The position numbers were made by a program, and so were the translations under genes. From positions 2,418,001-2,482,000 of the forward strand of contig JARFIW010000108.1 in the NCBI GenBank assembly GCA_036346225.1: DNA of 64,000 nt, read 5' to 3'. Numbering within the stretch: position 1 is the first letter of the stretch; each line of letters starts with the position of its first letter. Below are positions 13,840-24,745 of the stretch, in pieces. Below the pieces are notes generated by a model. It saw nothing but the letters and a program-made list of their open reading frames with translations, was not told the DNA's origin and did no database searches. Source of the DNA: Platerodrilus igneus. Taxonomy: Eukaryota > Arthropoda > Insecta > Coleoptera > Lycidae.

Positions 13840-13896
13840 GTGGCGGTAAGGACAGTCAAAACTATTTTCGCAATTCCAGTGTTGATAAAAGTAACG
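13840..13896 (-). pseudogene. CCCH zinc finger remnant, unit 1
   Basis: The minus strand reads YFYQHWNCENSFDCPYRHC. A short deletion just upstream removed the first Cys that the other units carry, so only the last three zinc ligands remain. Confidence 0.7.
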
Positions 13897-13924
13897 GTAC
13901 CATTTGGTGTGTAACCACACACCA

Positions 13925-14325
13925 ATATCTGGACTCCGGCATCCTGGAACAGCACTTCTAGCATATTTTGTACCACCCTCCAATCCAATCCATTGAGCCG
14001 ACAACCGATCTTAGGTATGGCCAATTTATTGTCTTCAGATTTGATCATCTGTCGCTTGAGATCTACTAACGTTGTCCGCAGATTTCGGTAATTTGCTTTA
14101 CCAGAAGGCTGTTTTTAGTAATCAAGTAGTTAAGCGCCGATGTTGATCCTTTAGCCGTATGGTTTTCCTGGTTATAGTCGACAAAGTTGATCAATACCAC
14201 CAAATTTATTTTCAACGCCTGAGTGTATCAAGTCCGACCCTACGCAATGTACCAATAAGGAGTATTCCAATTGCACATCGAATATAGCACCTAGAATCTC
14301 TTCTGTGATTCCAAATCCCGCTTTC
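13925..14325 (-). pseudogene. Macro domain (TARG1/OARD1-like), unit 1, broken
   Basis: Read on the minus strand, the N-terminal half gives EILGAIFDVQ, then LLVHCVGSDLI and ENKFGGIDQL. The C-terminal half gives NKLAIPKIGCRLNGLDW and VVQNMLEVLF followed by VQILVCGY. The order and spacing match macro domains of the TARG1/OARD1 type, which remove ADP-ribose from proteins. The Asp used by TARG1 in its GCGLD motif is Asn here. The frame from the preceding integrase C-terminal domain runs into this domain with a single TGA between them, so the two were probably one polyprotein. A stop and a frameshift split the domain near 14,170. Confidence 0.75.
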
Positions 14326-14399
14326 GATGTGCCACTGTATAAAGACATGAACCAATCATAGCTCGATCCAGACCGTTGTTCATCATCACGAGCATAACT

Positions 14400-14765
14400 G
14401 TTTGTTCATTTCACTGCATTACCGGCGTCATCGCTATCATAGGGCGCTAACGGGTTAACATGCACCACAATCGTTCTTCTTTTTGGGAGCTTACAATTCG
14501 GATATATCACGTCATTGATCCTCTTTTCAATTTCATCCGGACCCCTACCAATGTCTCTGTAACTTTGGCGACTGTCCATCTTTTCGTCTGGAGTTGTATA
14601 CCAGATACCTTTTTGAAAAACAGACTCCTGCGCCTCGGTGTCATATCTAGTCTTTATTCAATCGCTTGCGATCTGCATATTTTTCCTATCATACATCTTG
14701 CGTTTGAGCTTTTCGACGTAGCCTTTTTGTCCAAGATAGCATTTCCGAACTTACACCTAAGCTAA
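14400..14765 (-). pseudogene. Integrase C-terminal domain, unit 1, degenerate
   Basis: Degenerate version of the domain better seen in unit 2. The recognisable end is IVVHVNPLAPYDSDDAGNA, equivalent to the VVHxDRLAPY-type motif that closes the integrase C-terminal module of Ty3/gypsy elements. It lies directly upstream of the macro domain in the same frame. Confidence 0.65.
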
Positions 14766-14989
14766 AGTTGACACGGTAGACATATCTCGAGTCTCAGCAT
14801 AGCTCCTGCAGGTGTCCTAAAATCTTCGACACTCGTTTTCTAGAAACCACCACCTGTTCCGTTTGTAACTGTACTGGCTGACGATCGTCGTTGATTATTG
14901 TACTCTGAACAGTAAGATCACATTTTACCCGCGCGACACGGACGGCTATGTACAAGTCAATTTTGGTCCCTTTCCCTCGACCCCTTCTA

Positions 14990-15930
14990 TTAATTTTGGC
15001 TCCTAATGCTTTCCCTTAAACCGTCTAAATCGGTTTCGCCTGTGTCTAAATCCGCGGATTAGCGTCAATGTCTTTTTTTCTCAGACTGCTGGTTACGCAG
15101 TACCCAACAAATCATTGCCTTCACGTCCATTTCGCTCCGCTTTCTCCAGAGCGTCCTACTTTGCCACAGATTAAATGCTTCGATTGCTCTGCAGCCTCTA
15201 ACTCTAAGGCATGAGCCAACGCATTACGTGAAGTCTGTGACCAGGCCAGCTGTAGAGTTTACTCGATTTCTTCGTTGGGTTTTTCATCAATGAATGCCTA
15301 TAATGTCACTAACTCCAGAAATCTATCCGGTGCTGTTGGATAGGCTCGTCTCACCAGGCGAGCAATTTCTGCTTGAAACTCTTGAGAATTCTCGTTGGCC
15401 TTTTGATAACAGTGCTTCACTTGTGCGTGATACACTTGTTGTAGATGAGAATCGCCGTACATCATTTCCAGCCTTAACATTGAGTCCTCGTGTAGATTCT
15501 TTGGTCATGGTCTGGATTGGTCTGCAGAATATTCAAGGTCTCACCTTGGAATGCGTTTTTATCATCGTTCGAGCCGTTGGCTCTCGCGGCAAACTCGATT
15601 TGTTTAAAATATGTCTTTCAAGGTGAATTTCCATCAAATGTATGTTGTTTAATTCTGAACCTTAATGTCGGTTCGGATCCACCGATATTTTTTAATTCTG
15701 TAGCGTGCCGTTGTATCACTAAGATGGTGAACTTTTTCCGCATTTTTATTTAATTTTCTAGGAAATTCTCCTACCTTCACTGCCAAACTTGTAACGCTTT
15801 GGTCTTGTTTCTCTGTCAGGCTTGCAAAATTTTTATTAATTTTTTTCATGAGTTCCGCGAAGTGACCAGTCAAACACTCTTTAACGTTTGACTTGAACTC
15901 CTTCAATAACAAAAGAATTTTGCTATCCAT
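14990..15930 (-). pseudogene. Ty3/gypsy gag, unit 1, broken
   Basis: The ATG on the minus strand at 15,930 opens MDSKILLLLKEF, with a coiled-coil-like N-terminus rich in K/E/L. Later pieces include QEFQAEIARLVRRAYPTAPDRFLEL, split here as AEIARLVRRAYPTAP and RFLELVTL. This is the characteristic C-terminal capsid motif of Ty3-type gag. A Cys-Gly-Lys (ICGKVGRS) follows in the knuckle position, but a full CCHC is not preserved. Several frameshifts separate the pieces. Confidence 0.75.
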
Positions 15931-15971
15931 TTTCCGTTGAGTGCGAGAAATCGTTTGATGGTCTTTAAACT

Positions 15972-22384: not shown

Positions 22385-22518
22385 AGGGTCGCACCAATTA
22401 TCTTTTGTATATTCAAACCATTATTCTGGTCAACGTCAAACCAAAAAGCGCGACACTATCCTACTCTTAAAGCTGTTCCGTCCCAGAACACTTCGTGCGC
22501 AGAGCGTTGGGAGTCACA

Positions 22519-22575
22519 GTGGCGATAAAGACAGTCAATACCATTTCTGCAGTTCCAATGTTGATAAAAGTAACA
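22519..22575 (-). pseudogene. CCCH zinc finger, unit 4, all four ligands present
   Basis: The minus strand reads CYFYQHWNCRNGIDCLYRH, C-x7-C-x5-C-x3-H. The frame stays open from the macro remnant upstream (MDWRVVQNMLEV at 22,692) through the finger to a stop at 22,456. Confidence 0.75.
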
Positions 22576-22604
22576 CCCAACACTCTTCGTAGCAGGTACG
22601 GTAC

Positions 22605-22925
22605 CATTTAGTTTATAACCACACACCAAAATCTGGACTCCGGCATTCTGGAACCGCACTTCTAGCATATTTTGTACCACCCTCCAGTCCAATCCATTGA
22701 GCCGACAACCGATCTAGGGTATGGCCAATTTATTGTCCTCAGATTTGATCATCTGTCGCTTGAGATCTACTAACGTTGTCCACAGATTTCGGTAATTTGC
22801 TTTACCAGAAGGCTGTTTTTAGTCATCAAGTAGTTAAGCGCCGATGTTGATCCTTTAGCCGTATGGTTTTCCTGGTTATAGTCGACAAAGTTGCTCAATA
22901 CCACCAAATTTATTTTCAACATCTG
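22605..22925 (-). pseudogene. Macro domain C-terminal half, unit 4
   Basis: KIGCRLNGLDW appears here as AIP-stop-IGCRLNGLDW, followed by VVQNMLEVRF and VQILVCGY. The catalytic-position residue is Asn. The N-terminal half was lost in the deletion that joins this to gag. Confidence 0.7.
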
Positions 22926-23465
22926 AGCGTATACATTATTTCCAGCCTTGATATTAAGGCCTTGTGTAGCTTCTTTGGTTATGGTCTGGATTGGTCTGCA
23001 GAATATTCAATTCGGGGTCTCACCTCCAAATGCGTTTTTATCATCGTTCGAGCCGTTAGCTCTCGCGGAAAACTCGATTTGTTTAAATATGTTTTCTAGA
23101 GTAACTTTCCATCAAATGTATGTTGTTTAATTCCGAACCTTAACGTCGGTTCAAATTCCCCAATATTTTTTAATTCTGTAGCGTGCGGTTGTATCACTGG
23201 GACAGTGGAGTTTTTCCGCATTTGTATTTAATTCTTTCGGAAATTCTCCTAACTTCACTGCCAAATTTGTATCGCTTTGGTCTTGTTTCTCTGTCAGGTT
23301 TGTAAAATTTTTATTTAACTTTTTCCATGAGTACCGCGAAGTGACAGTCAAACTATCTTCTACGCTTGACCTGAACTCCATCAGTAACAAAAGAATTTTG
23401 CTATCCCTTTATGTTGAGTGCGAGAAAACGTTTGAAGGTCTTTAAACTCCACTACTTGACACCAA

Positions 23466-24105
23466 TGTAGCGAAAAGTCTATTTGTAATAACAACAGTTT
23501 TCTATTTTCAAACTGGTTACACAAGTCTTCGTCAGCAATTCGTAGTACTATAAAATTTGCAAAAGATTACAACGATTTACTTTCTGAACACTAACTAACA
23601 GTACAAGTTTAATCTTCTGAACACTATGGCTCTATCTTCTTAATTAACTTAATCACGAAGCACTGCAGATAAAAATCAAAGCACTAGTTAATTTATATAA
23701 ACACCACAGTAATTCATATGAACAGTTATTTATATGAAGATTTATATCACATCTGTACGACTGTCAGAGCTATAAACTACAGCATATTGCAATCAACGCT
23801 ATACATTAAAATTCCACTTCAAGTAGAACTAACATCATGGTCTATTACAATCGAAGCTGTAATTAGAACTGACCTTCAGAATCCCTTAATATTAATTTAT
23901 ACTCTATCCAAAGTTCTATACCTATAACAATCAAAGATAAGCAAATTACATTTTCGGGAATTCTACTGTACTTTAAATAACTTCTCAAATACACCTATTG
24001 TTGTCTTAATAACCTTTAAATGTATAAACCCTGTACCTATCAATCAAACGATCTCGCATCGTAAGGACCTTACAAACATCAGATATTTGAAGATGTGACA
24101 CCACA
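23466..24105 (-). repeat. Array LTR 5
   Basis: 640 bp, near-identical to LTR 4. It is the right-most LTR of the array: no further LTR follows unit 5, which is truncated. Confidence 0.88.
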
Positions 24106-24176
24106 AGGGTCGCACCAATTATCTTTTGTATTTTCAAACCATTATTCTGGTCAACGCCAAACCAAAAAGCGCGACA

Positions 24177-24745
24177 CTACCCTACTCTTAAAGCTGTTCT
24201 GTCCCAGAACACTTCGTGCGCAGAGCGTTGGGAGTCACAGTGGCGAGAAAGACAGTCAATACCATTTCTGCAGTTCCAATGTTGATAAAAGTAACACGCA
24301 ACACTCTTCGTAGCAGGTACGGTATCATTCGGTTTGTAACCACACGCCAAAATTTGGACTCCTGCAATTTGGAACAGCACTTCTAGCATATTTTGTATCA
24401 CCCTCCAGTCCAATCCATTAAGCCCACAACCGATCTTGAGTATGGCCAACGTATTGTCTTCAAATTTGATCATCTGTCGCTTGAGATCTACTAACGTCAC
24501 CCATATATTTCGGTAATTCGGTTTACCAGAAGGCTGTTTTTTAGTCATCAAGTAGTTGAGGCACCGATGTTGATCCTTTAGCCGTGTGGTATTCTTGGTT
24601 ATAGTCGACAACGTTGATCAATACCACCAAATTTATTTTCAACACTTGAGCGTATCAAGTCCGACCCTACGCAATGTACTAATAAGGAGTATTCCAATTG
24701 CACATCAAATATAGCACCTACAATCCTTTCTGTGACTCCATATCC
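24177..24745 (-). pseudogene. Macro domain plus CCCH zinc finger, unit 5 (longest single frame)
   Basis: The 144-codon minus-strand frame from 24,611 to 24,177 links the two domains without interruption. CLNYLMTKKQPSGKPNY is followed by LVDLKRQMIKFEDNTLAI, KIGCGLNGLDW, VIQNMLEVLF and VQILACGYKP, then the finger CYFYQHWNCRNGIDCLSRH at 24,240-24,296. Residues 24-75 follow TARG1/OARD1 almost column by column: the Lys of LxTKK is kept, and Asn replaces the Asp of GCGLD. The N-terminal half (ERIVGAIFDVQ, LLVHCVGSDL, ENKFGGIDQ) lies in the other frame at 24,612-24,745. The upstream frame change and the Asn leave open whether this could still hydrolyse ADP-ribose or only bind it. Confidence 0.78.

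Follow-up and report, generated by a model that had tools for sequence, protein, structure and literature searches.

A Ty3/gypsy retrotransposon lineage of insects encodes a TARG1-type macrodomain and a CCCH zinc finger behind integrase

The 64,000-nucleotide stretch of the Platerodrilus igneus genome analysed here (contig JARFIW010000108.1, positions 2,418,001 to 2,482,000; hereafter the window) holds a tandem array of decayed Ty3/gypsy units. It is next to certain, in our view, that these units descend from an insect Ty3/gypsy lineage that encodes a macrodomain of the TARG1/OARD1 type and then a CCCH zinc finger, in frame after the integrase C-terminal domain. An initial annotation, made from the letters of the window, had proposed such a module behind integrase, and better-kept relatives bear it out, with reverse transcriptase (RT) upstream and the module placed before the 3′ long terminal repeat (LTR). 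TARG1 was the best match over other macrodomains, in keeping with assignment to the TARG1/OARD1 type.

We searched the host's own 2.71-Gb assembly with a 146-amino-acid frame of the array and with the macro-CCCH module of one genomic copy, L039; scoring was confined to the top rows, in which intact copies are over-represented as a result, and first-look candidates are not confirmed copies. The window frame gave 10,614 first-look candidates, and the best 150, which were scored, all had E values of 4e-35 or better, many of them spanning residue ~9 to 144-146, that is, both domains. With the L039 module, 13,216 candidates were obtained and the best 150 scored all passed, at 93-100% identity over the module; 135 of these have no stop inside, and open frames reach 1,441 amino acids without a stop and 1,575 with one stop inside the match. 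In copy L041 a single open frame covers integrase and macrodomain, matching TARG1 at E 2.5e-38 and Ty3 Pol at E 3.3e-11. Because so many scored copies are so alike over the module, single-locus host cDNA, which the initial annotation had named as a refuting outcome, is not the explanation: copies are dispersed through the genome and the same fusion occurs in other species, which rules it out.

The copies fall into two subfamilies, an older one of the window type and a younger one. LTR pairs of the young type are 96.6-98.5% identical in L039, L047, L049 and L051, and 85-87% in L040 and L043. In L039 the LTRs (1318-1902 and 7358-7942) have TG..CA ends and are accompanied by a primer site and a polypurine tract, and the integrase-macro-CCCH frame crosses this tract to stop at 7413, within the 3′ LTR. 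The window-type copy L044 encodes gag, protease, RT, RNase H, H2C2 finger, integrase core, integrase C-terminus and macrodomain in that order, flanked on both sides by window-type LTR pieces. A 4-bp target duplication was found in six of the eight elements with both edges located (absent in L041 and L043), being ATAT in five (L039, L040, L047, L049, L051) and TTAT in one; these duplications amount to a marked local DNA target preference and are silent on chromatin. The best Pfam Macro matches in the genome are L001 and L002 (G000:C307:4423717-4439144; E 1.9e-15 and 5.8e-13), which cover adjoining parts of the profile and are probably exons of a host macrodomain gene. A host TARG1 gene could not be told from element copies, the best 150 rows being 46-49% alike to a Leptinotarsa query.

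The C-terminal fusion with its finger is also encoded in Harmonia axyridis (P0002), Aromia moschata (P0014-P0016) and further assemblies (P0007-P0013, P0017). The Pol order protease, RT, RNase H, integrase was found in P0007, P0008, P0009, P0011 and P0013, as well as in L044. Of 28 element-type proteins, 14 carry the finger pattern C-x7-C-x5-C-x3-H, against 0 of 26 of the host type, a division that we made ourselves from Pol domains and annotation and in which P0006 is only probably an element; given these counts, the finger was probably added within the element. The PF00642 profile exceeds its cut-off in P0007 and P0008 and lies at or below it in the other proteins scanned and in the window. 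P0018-P0020 are close kin of the fusion group, and these proteins end without a finger. P0003 and P0018 are labelled as Erysiphe pulchra, a fungus, and may well represent insect DNA within a fungal assembly. On the 5369-base contig of P0003 the gene model passes from the CCCH finger directly into gag, which could mean that a second copy lies in tandem or that the LTRs were collapsed during assembly. Viral contigs searched with two queries gave no match.

In the window itself, the module is recognised through pairwise homology and through its better-kept relatives. The 146-amino-acid frame matches human TARG1/OARD1 in the PDB with an E value of 1.3e-10, far beyond chance. The motif pieces listed in the initial annotation were recovered: unit 5 has HCVGSDL, YLMTKKQ and IGCGLNGLDW, unit 1 also has HCVGSDL, unit 3 also has YLMTKKQ, and GDLYD stands in unit 2. 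In unit 1, as had been described, VVHVNPLAPYDSDDAGNAVK, a single stop and the N-terminus of the macrodomain follow one another in the same frame. Unit 5 had been credited with both domains in one frame; the frame is indeed free of stops and includes C-x7-C-x5-C-x3-H, but of the macrodomain it holds the C-terminal part only. Profile searches, which the initial annotation had suggested, did not give its refuting outcome of no macrodomain hit: all four young-type frames scanned from the host genome exceed the Pfam Macro cut-off, and the window-type frame of L044 matched no Pfam family.

All of 14 proteins compared keep the catalytic pair of TARG1 (K84 and D125), and we consider it probable that the macrodomain is an active ADP-ribosylhydrolase. 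A codon-position bias was seen between the subfamilies (28 window-type loci compared with 16 of the young type). From the predicted structure the macrodomain part alone was used, as 305 of 549 residues, mostly in integrase and the tail, have a predicted local distance difference test (pLDDT) value below 50. That the module is a functionless passenger, captured host cDNA or a local fusion seems barely credible to us. The broken state of the window copies and the occurrence of host-type proteins with a similar macrodomain in beetles and aphids would suit it, but the best 150 copies, those that were scored, were all real in each of the two genome searches, the domain order is the same in Harmonia and Aromia, and the invariant dyad and the codon-position bias both speak for function; the dispersal of the copies and the presence of the fusion in further species already contradict a local event.

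On balance we lean towards a Pol-borne ADP-ribosylhydrolase whose target would be the host's ADP-ribosylation around the steps of reverse transcription and integration. As part of Pol, the macrodomain would enter the particle and the integration complex. Travelling with Pol or integrase, the eraser could strip ADP-ribose from proteins, RNA or cDNA ends of the element itself, or alternatively from chromatin at the integration site, and its removal might blunt a host response of the PARP or sirtuin type to reverse-transcribed DNA and integration breaks, while the CCCH finger, which probably binds RNA or DNA, would keep the eraser on the nucleoprotein. Our preference is for an eraser protecting the element or the intermediates of its integration, because TARG1 removes ADP-ribose from acidic residues and from terminal phosphates of DNA and RNA (PMC8053099), and because in mammals ADP-ribosylation is used against retrotransposons, through SIRT6 and KAP1 at L1 (PMC4695847). 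The fusion may thus aid the element against a host response; a counter-defence purpose as such we advance tentatively, at somewhat less than an even chance.

Some results tell against the module in the window itself. None of the eight window frames scanned matches Pfam Macro (E up to 1), the window's Pfam matches stay below cut-off both for the CCCH finger (E 0.012) and for the tail of integrase (E 0.041), and a protein search with the 146-amino-acid frame led to 0 of 12 candidates being accepted. Other findings weigh against the eraser interpretation. The window copies are broken and four of the five units have Asn at the D125 position; the Lys can be read in three units (2, 3 and 5), the frame shifting there in units 1 and 4, and the Asp in a single unit. 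In 28 other window-type loci, counted with double-fetched loci taken once (L004 in L051, L012 in L045, L032 in L044), K84 is present in 24 and D125 in 18. Asn at D125 is ruled out as a family trait, with Asp in 18 and Asn in 4 of those 28 loci. Selection on the macrodomain of the young subfamily is only weakly seen across its 16 loci, with omega ~0.57 at shared sites (19 versus 12 changes) as against 0.89 for singletons, and the codon pairing behind both omega and the codon-position bias comes from tblastn, which favours protein likeness. Finally, most of the PARPs of vertebrates are reported to be missing from insects (PMC10221186), which weakens the counter-defence reading.

Macrodomains were also found at other positions in Pol, namely between RNase H and the H2C2 finger (P0035 from Rhynchophorus, P0044, P0051 from Sipha flava, and P0052), before protease (P0039, P0043), between protease and RT (P0054), and at the C-terminus without a p58_C match (P0038, P0040). 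Of these proteins only P0044 and P0052 exceed the Pfam Macro cut-off; the remaining cases rest on how they compare with TARG1 and P0003, and of these P0054 has the weakest scores (68 and 76 bits). These positions bear on two further explanations. The main rival holds that the macro-CCCH tail is a reader or tether, which would guide integrase to RNA-rich sites, DNA breaks or chromatin bearing ADP-ribose, with hydrolysis secondary or absent, by analogy with the steering proposed for the chromodomain of chromoviruses. The tail sits where that chromodomain sits, at the integrase C-terminus (PMC3605345), and TARG1 is recruited to sites of DNA damage in a PAR-dependent way (PMC8053099). The catalytic pair, however, is dispensable for mere binding and yet invariant in 14 of 14 proteins, and steering fits less well with the other elements, whose macrodomain precedes protease or is lodged between protease and RT or between RNase H and integrase, so that we judge this unlikely as the sole role; eraser and tether could both hold. 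Somewhat more improbable to us is integration housekeeping, in which the eraser would clear ADP-ribose from DNA ends and repair factors for gap repair, with no host conflict. Fusion to integrase agrees with such a task, as does the removal by TARG1-type enzymes of ADP-ribose from 5′ and 3′ terminal phosphates (PMC8053099). Against it, the other Pol positions of the macrodomain are not all beside integrase. Moreover, to our knowledge most Ty3/gypsy elements manage without a macrodomain.

In an RT tree of 19 rows the fusion lineage groups with P0053 (100/97), the types with N- and C-terminal macrodomains stand together (100/100) apart from it, and P0035 is joined to a second Ty3-type element of the window (95/93), again apart from the fusion lineage. 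That element, at 37839-46901 on the plus strand, has 513-base terminal repeats that are 98.8% identical and carries, besides its RT piece, RNase H, H2C2 finger, integrase core and a weak Ty3 capsid match. In a macrodomain tree of 46 rows, which omits the near relatives P0015, P0016, P0025, P0029, P0037, P0042, P0047, P0049 and P0050, the fusion proteins and the finger-less P0018-P0020 form one group (92/90), and host-type proteins are scattered among the element groups with weak resolution, 18 of 43 inner branches being open and the bootstrap not having settled. One origin of all element macrodomains was not rejected on a quick tree that additionally omits P0006 and P0054 (approximately unbiased test, p 0.204). 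Since other Ty3/gypsy lineages have the macrodomain elsewhere in Pol, it has probably been captured repeatedly or shuffled from element to element. We can imagine, with considerable doubt, that insect Ty3/gypsy elements took up TARG1-type ADP-ribosylhydrolases more than once since host ADP-ribosylation, of the PARP or sirtuin type, restricts retrotransposition; the four to five places in Pol and at least three RT lineages would then be its outcome, with integrase-macro-CCCH as a highly successful form. If true, ADP-ribose would be a front line between retrotransposons and their insect hosts.

Compared with human TARG1 (OARD1, C6orf130), the domain described here belongs to a polyprotein encoded by a retrotransposon, in which integrase is fused to it and a CCCH finger comes after it. 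Macrodomains are counter-defence enzymes in some RNA viruses; those of alphaviruses, rubella virus and coronaviruses belong to another branch, with 11-14% identity when aligned, and to RNA viruses rather than retrotransposons. The likeness to ZAP/PARP13 drawn in the initial annotation proved superficial, as there is one CCCH finger and not several, and Pfam scans of 24 relatives and seven own-genome frames met no PARP-like or WWE domain. Chromoviruses, too, are Ty3/gypsy elements whose integrase C-terminus bears an added domain (PMC3605345), but in the present lineage the domain is an ADP-ribose one, and the same scans found no chromodomain. The nearest published case that we met is the macrodomain reading frame of fish epsilon-like endogenous retroviruses (PMC4977317, citing Basta 2009), likewise reverse-transcribing elements; there it is an additional frame of a vertebrate retrovirus rather than a fusion to Ty3/gypsy Pol, and the portion of that account available to us mentions no finger and does not state the macrodomain type. 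In the available portion of a survey of viral NAD and ADP-ribose systems (PMC9503650), the words Metaviridae, TARG1, OARD1 and CCCH are absent. Within the open-licence literature, thus without subscription papers and repeat databases, we found no account of an integrase-macro-CCCH fusion, nor were macrodomains known there as part of Ty3/gypsy Pol. A catalytic-looking eraser kept in fusion to integrase in several beetles, and at other Pol positions in other insect elements, points to an unexplored conflict between retrotransposon and host or to unexplored integration biochemistry. In addition, some insect gene models called C3H1-type or macro-domain proteins are retrotransposon Pol.

The array itself consists of five head-to-tail macro-CCCH units on the minus strand, running from ~26022 down to ~13410 and so further in both directions than the 13840-24745 first assigned to it (Table 1). 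The unit order is gag remnant, integrase C-terminus, macrodomain, CCCH finger and LTR, unit 4 being without the integrase piece, and adjacent units are separated by a single common LTR. Of the LTR blocks, three are close to complete at ~645 bases and the two others carry deletions. The LTRs after units 5 and 4 are 95.8% identical, and that after unit 2 is 86-87% identical to either of them; units 4 and 5 arose by a younger duplication of ~1.7 kb and share 95% identity across 1632 bases. Protease, RT, RNase H, H2C2 finger and integrase core had no match in any of the five units, and the array thus does not itself display the Ty3/gypsy Pol order; the spacer that separates RNase H from the H2C2 finger, kept in unit 2, is the sole such piece matched. 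A tandem repeat (262 bases, four times; 26540-27595) lies just past the array start.

Table 1. Features of the macro-CCCH array, in window coordinates
Feature	Position	Strand	Remark
Unit 5 gag remnant	25553..26022	(-)	array start cut here
Unit 5 integrase C-terminus	24858..25093	(-)	weak Pfam match
Unit 5 macrodomain, N-terminal part	24600..24745	(-)	other frame than the 146-aa frame; edges approximate
Unit 5 stop-free 146-aa frame	24177..24617	(-)	macrodomain C-terminal part and CCCH finger
LTR, units 5/4	23466..24176	(-)	start by polypurine tract and TG, end by primer site
Unit 4 macro-CCCH pieces	22459..22894	(-)	unit from the ~1.7 kb duplication
LTR, units 4/3	21744..22455	(-)	
Unit 3 gag remnant	21037..21418	(-)	
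Unit 3 integrase C-terminus	20375..20721	(-)	
Unit 3 macro-CCCH pieces	19698..20093	(-)	
LTR, units 3/2	19125..19694	(-)	deletion present
Unit 2 gag remnant	18294..18797	(-)	
Unit 2 RNase H-to-H2C2 spacer	17827..18024	(-)	E 5e-5
Unit 2 integrase C-terminus	17481..17744	(-)	
Unit 2 macro-CCCH pieces	16706..17196	(-)	only unit with Asp at the D125 position
LTR, units 2/1	15989..16702	(-)	
Unit 1 gag remnant	15130..15686	(-)	
Unit 1 integrase C-terminus	14436..14815	(-)	
Unit 1 macro-CCCH pieces	13783..14312	(-)	macro N-terminus in integrase frame save one stop
LTR after unit 1	13410..13776	(-)	internal deletion

A query running from gag into the post-RNase H spacer (window 15200-14800) gave 36 longer matches outside the contig (C108), among 40 scored of 559 candidates, and 35 of the 36 run through gag and spacer unbroken at ~70-74% identity. 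In the full-length copy L044 these sites lie ~2 kb apart. The unbroken matches imply that loss of protease, RT and RNase H is common to the dispersed copies, and the array derives from a dispersed, internally deleted form of the element that was amplified in tandem. Units 1, 3 and 5 are mutually 86-89% identical in gag-to-spacer DNA, closer than any unit is to the dispersed copies, and this greater likeness fits tandem amplification on the spot. A further small deletion is found in units 1, 3 and 5 and at C108:2491310-2491531, outside the window, and not in unit 2; it alone is local to the contig. Gag-to-spacer neighbours 0.7-1.5 kb apart (C858:8257600 and 8259149; C1110:244528 and 245277) suggest that tandem copies occur elsewhere in the genome too.

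The remaining repeats of the window belong to other kinds of element. On the plus strand, repeats at 6540-6945 and 11770-12176, 98.0% identical, flank frames of which 7448-8359 matches DUF1759; we take this element (6540-12176) to be probably of the BEL/Pao type. Broken frames at 28179-33109 and 54786-59696, also on the plus strand, hold knuckle, endonuclease-like and RT-like pieces when read by eye, and look like two non-LTR retrotransposon remnants. A tandem repeat of 12 bases, 31 times over, occupies 2250-2620.

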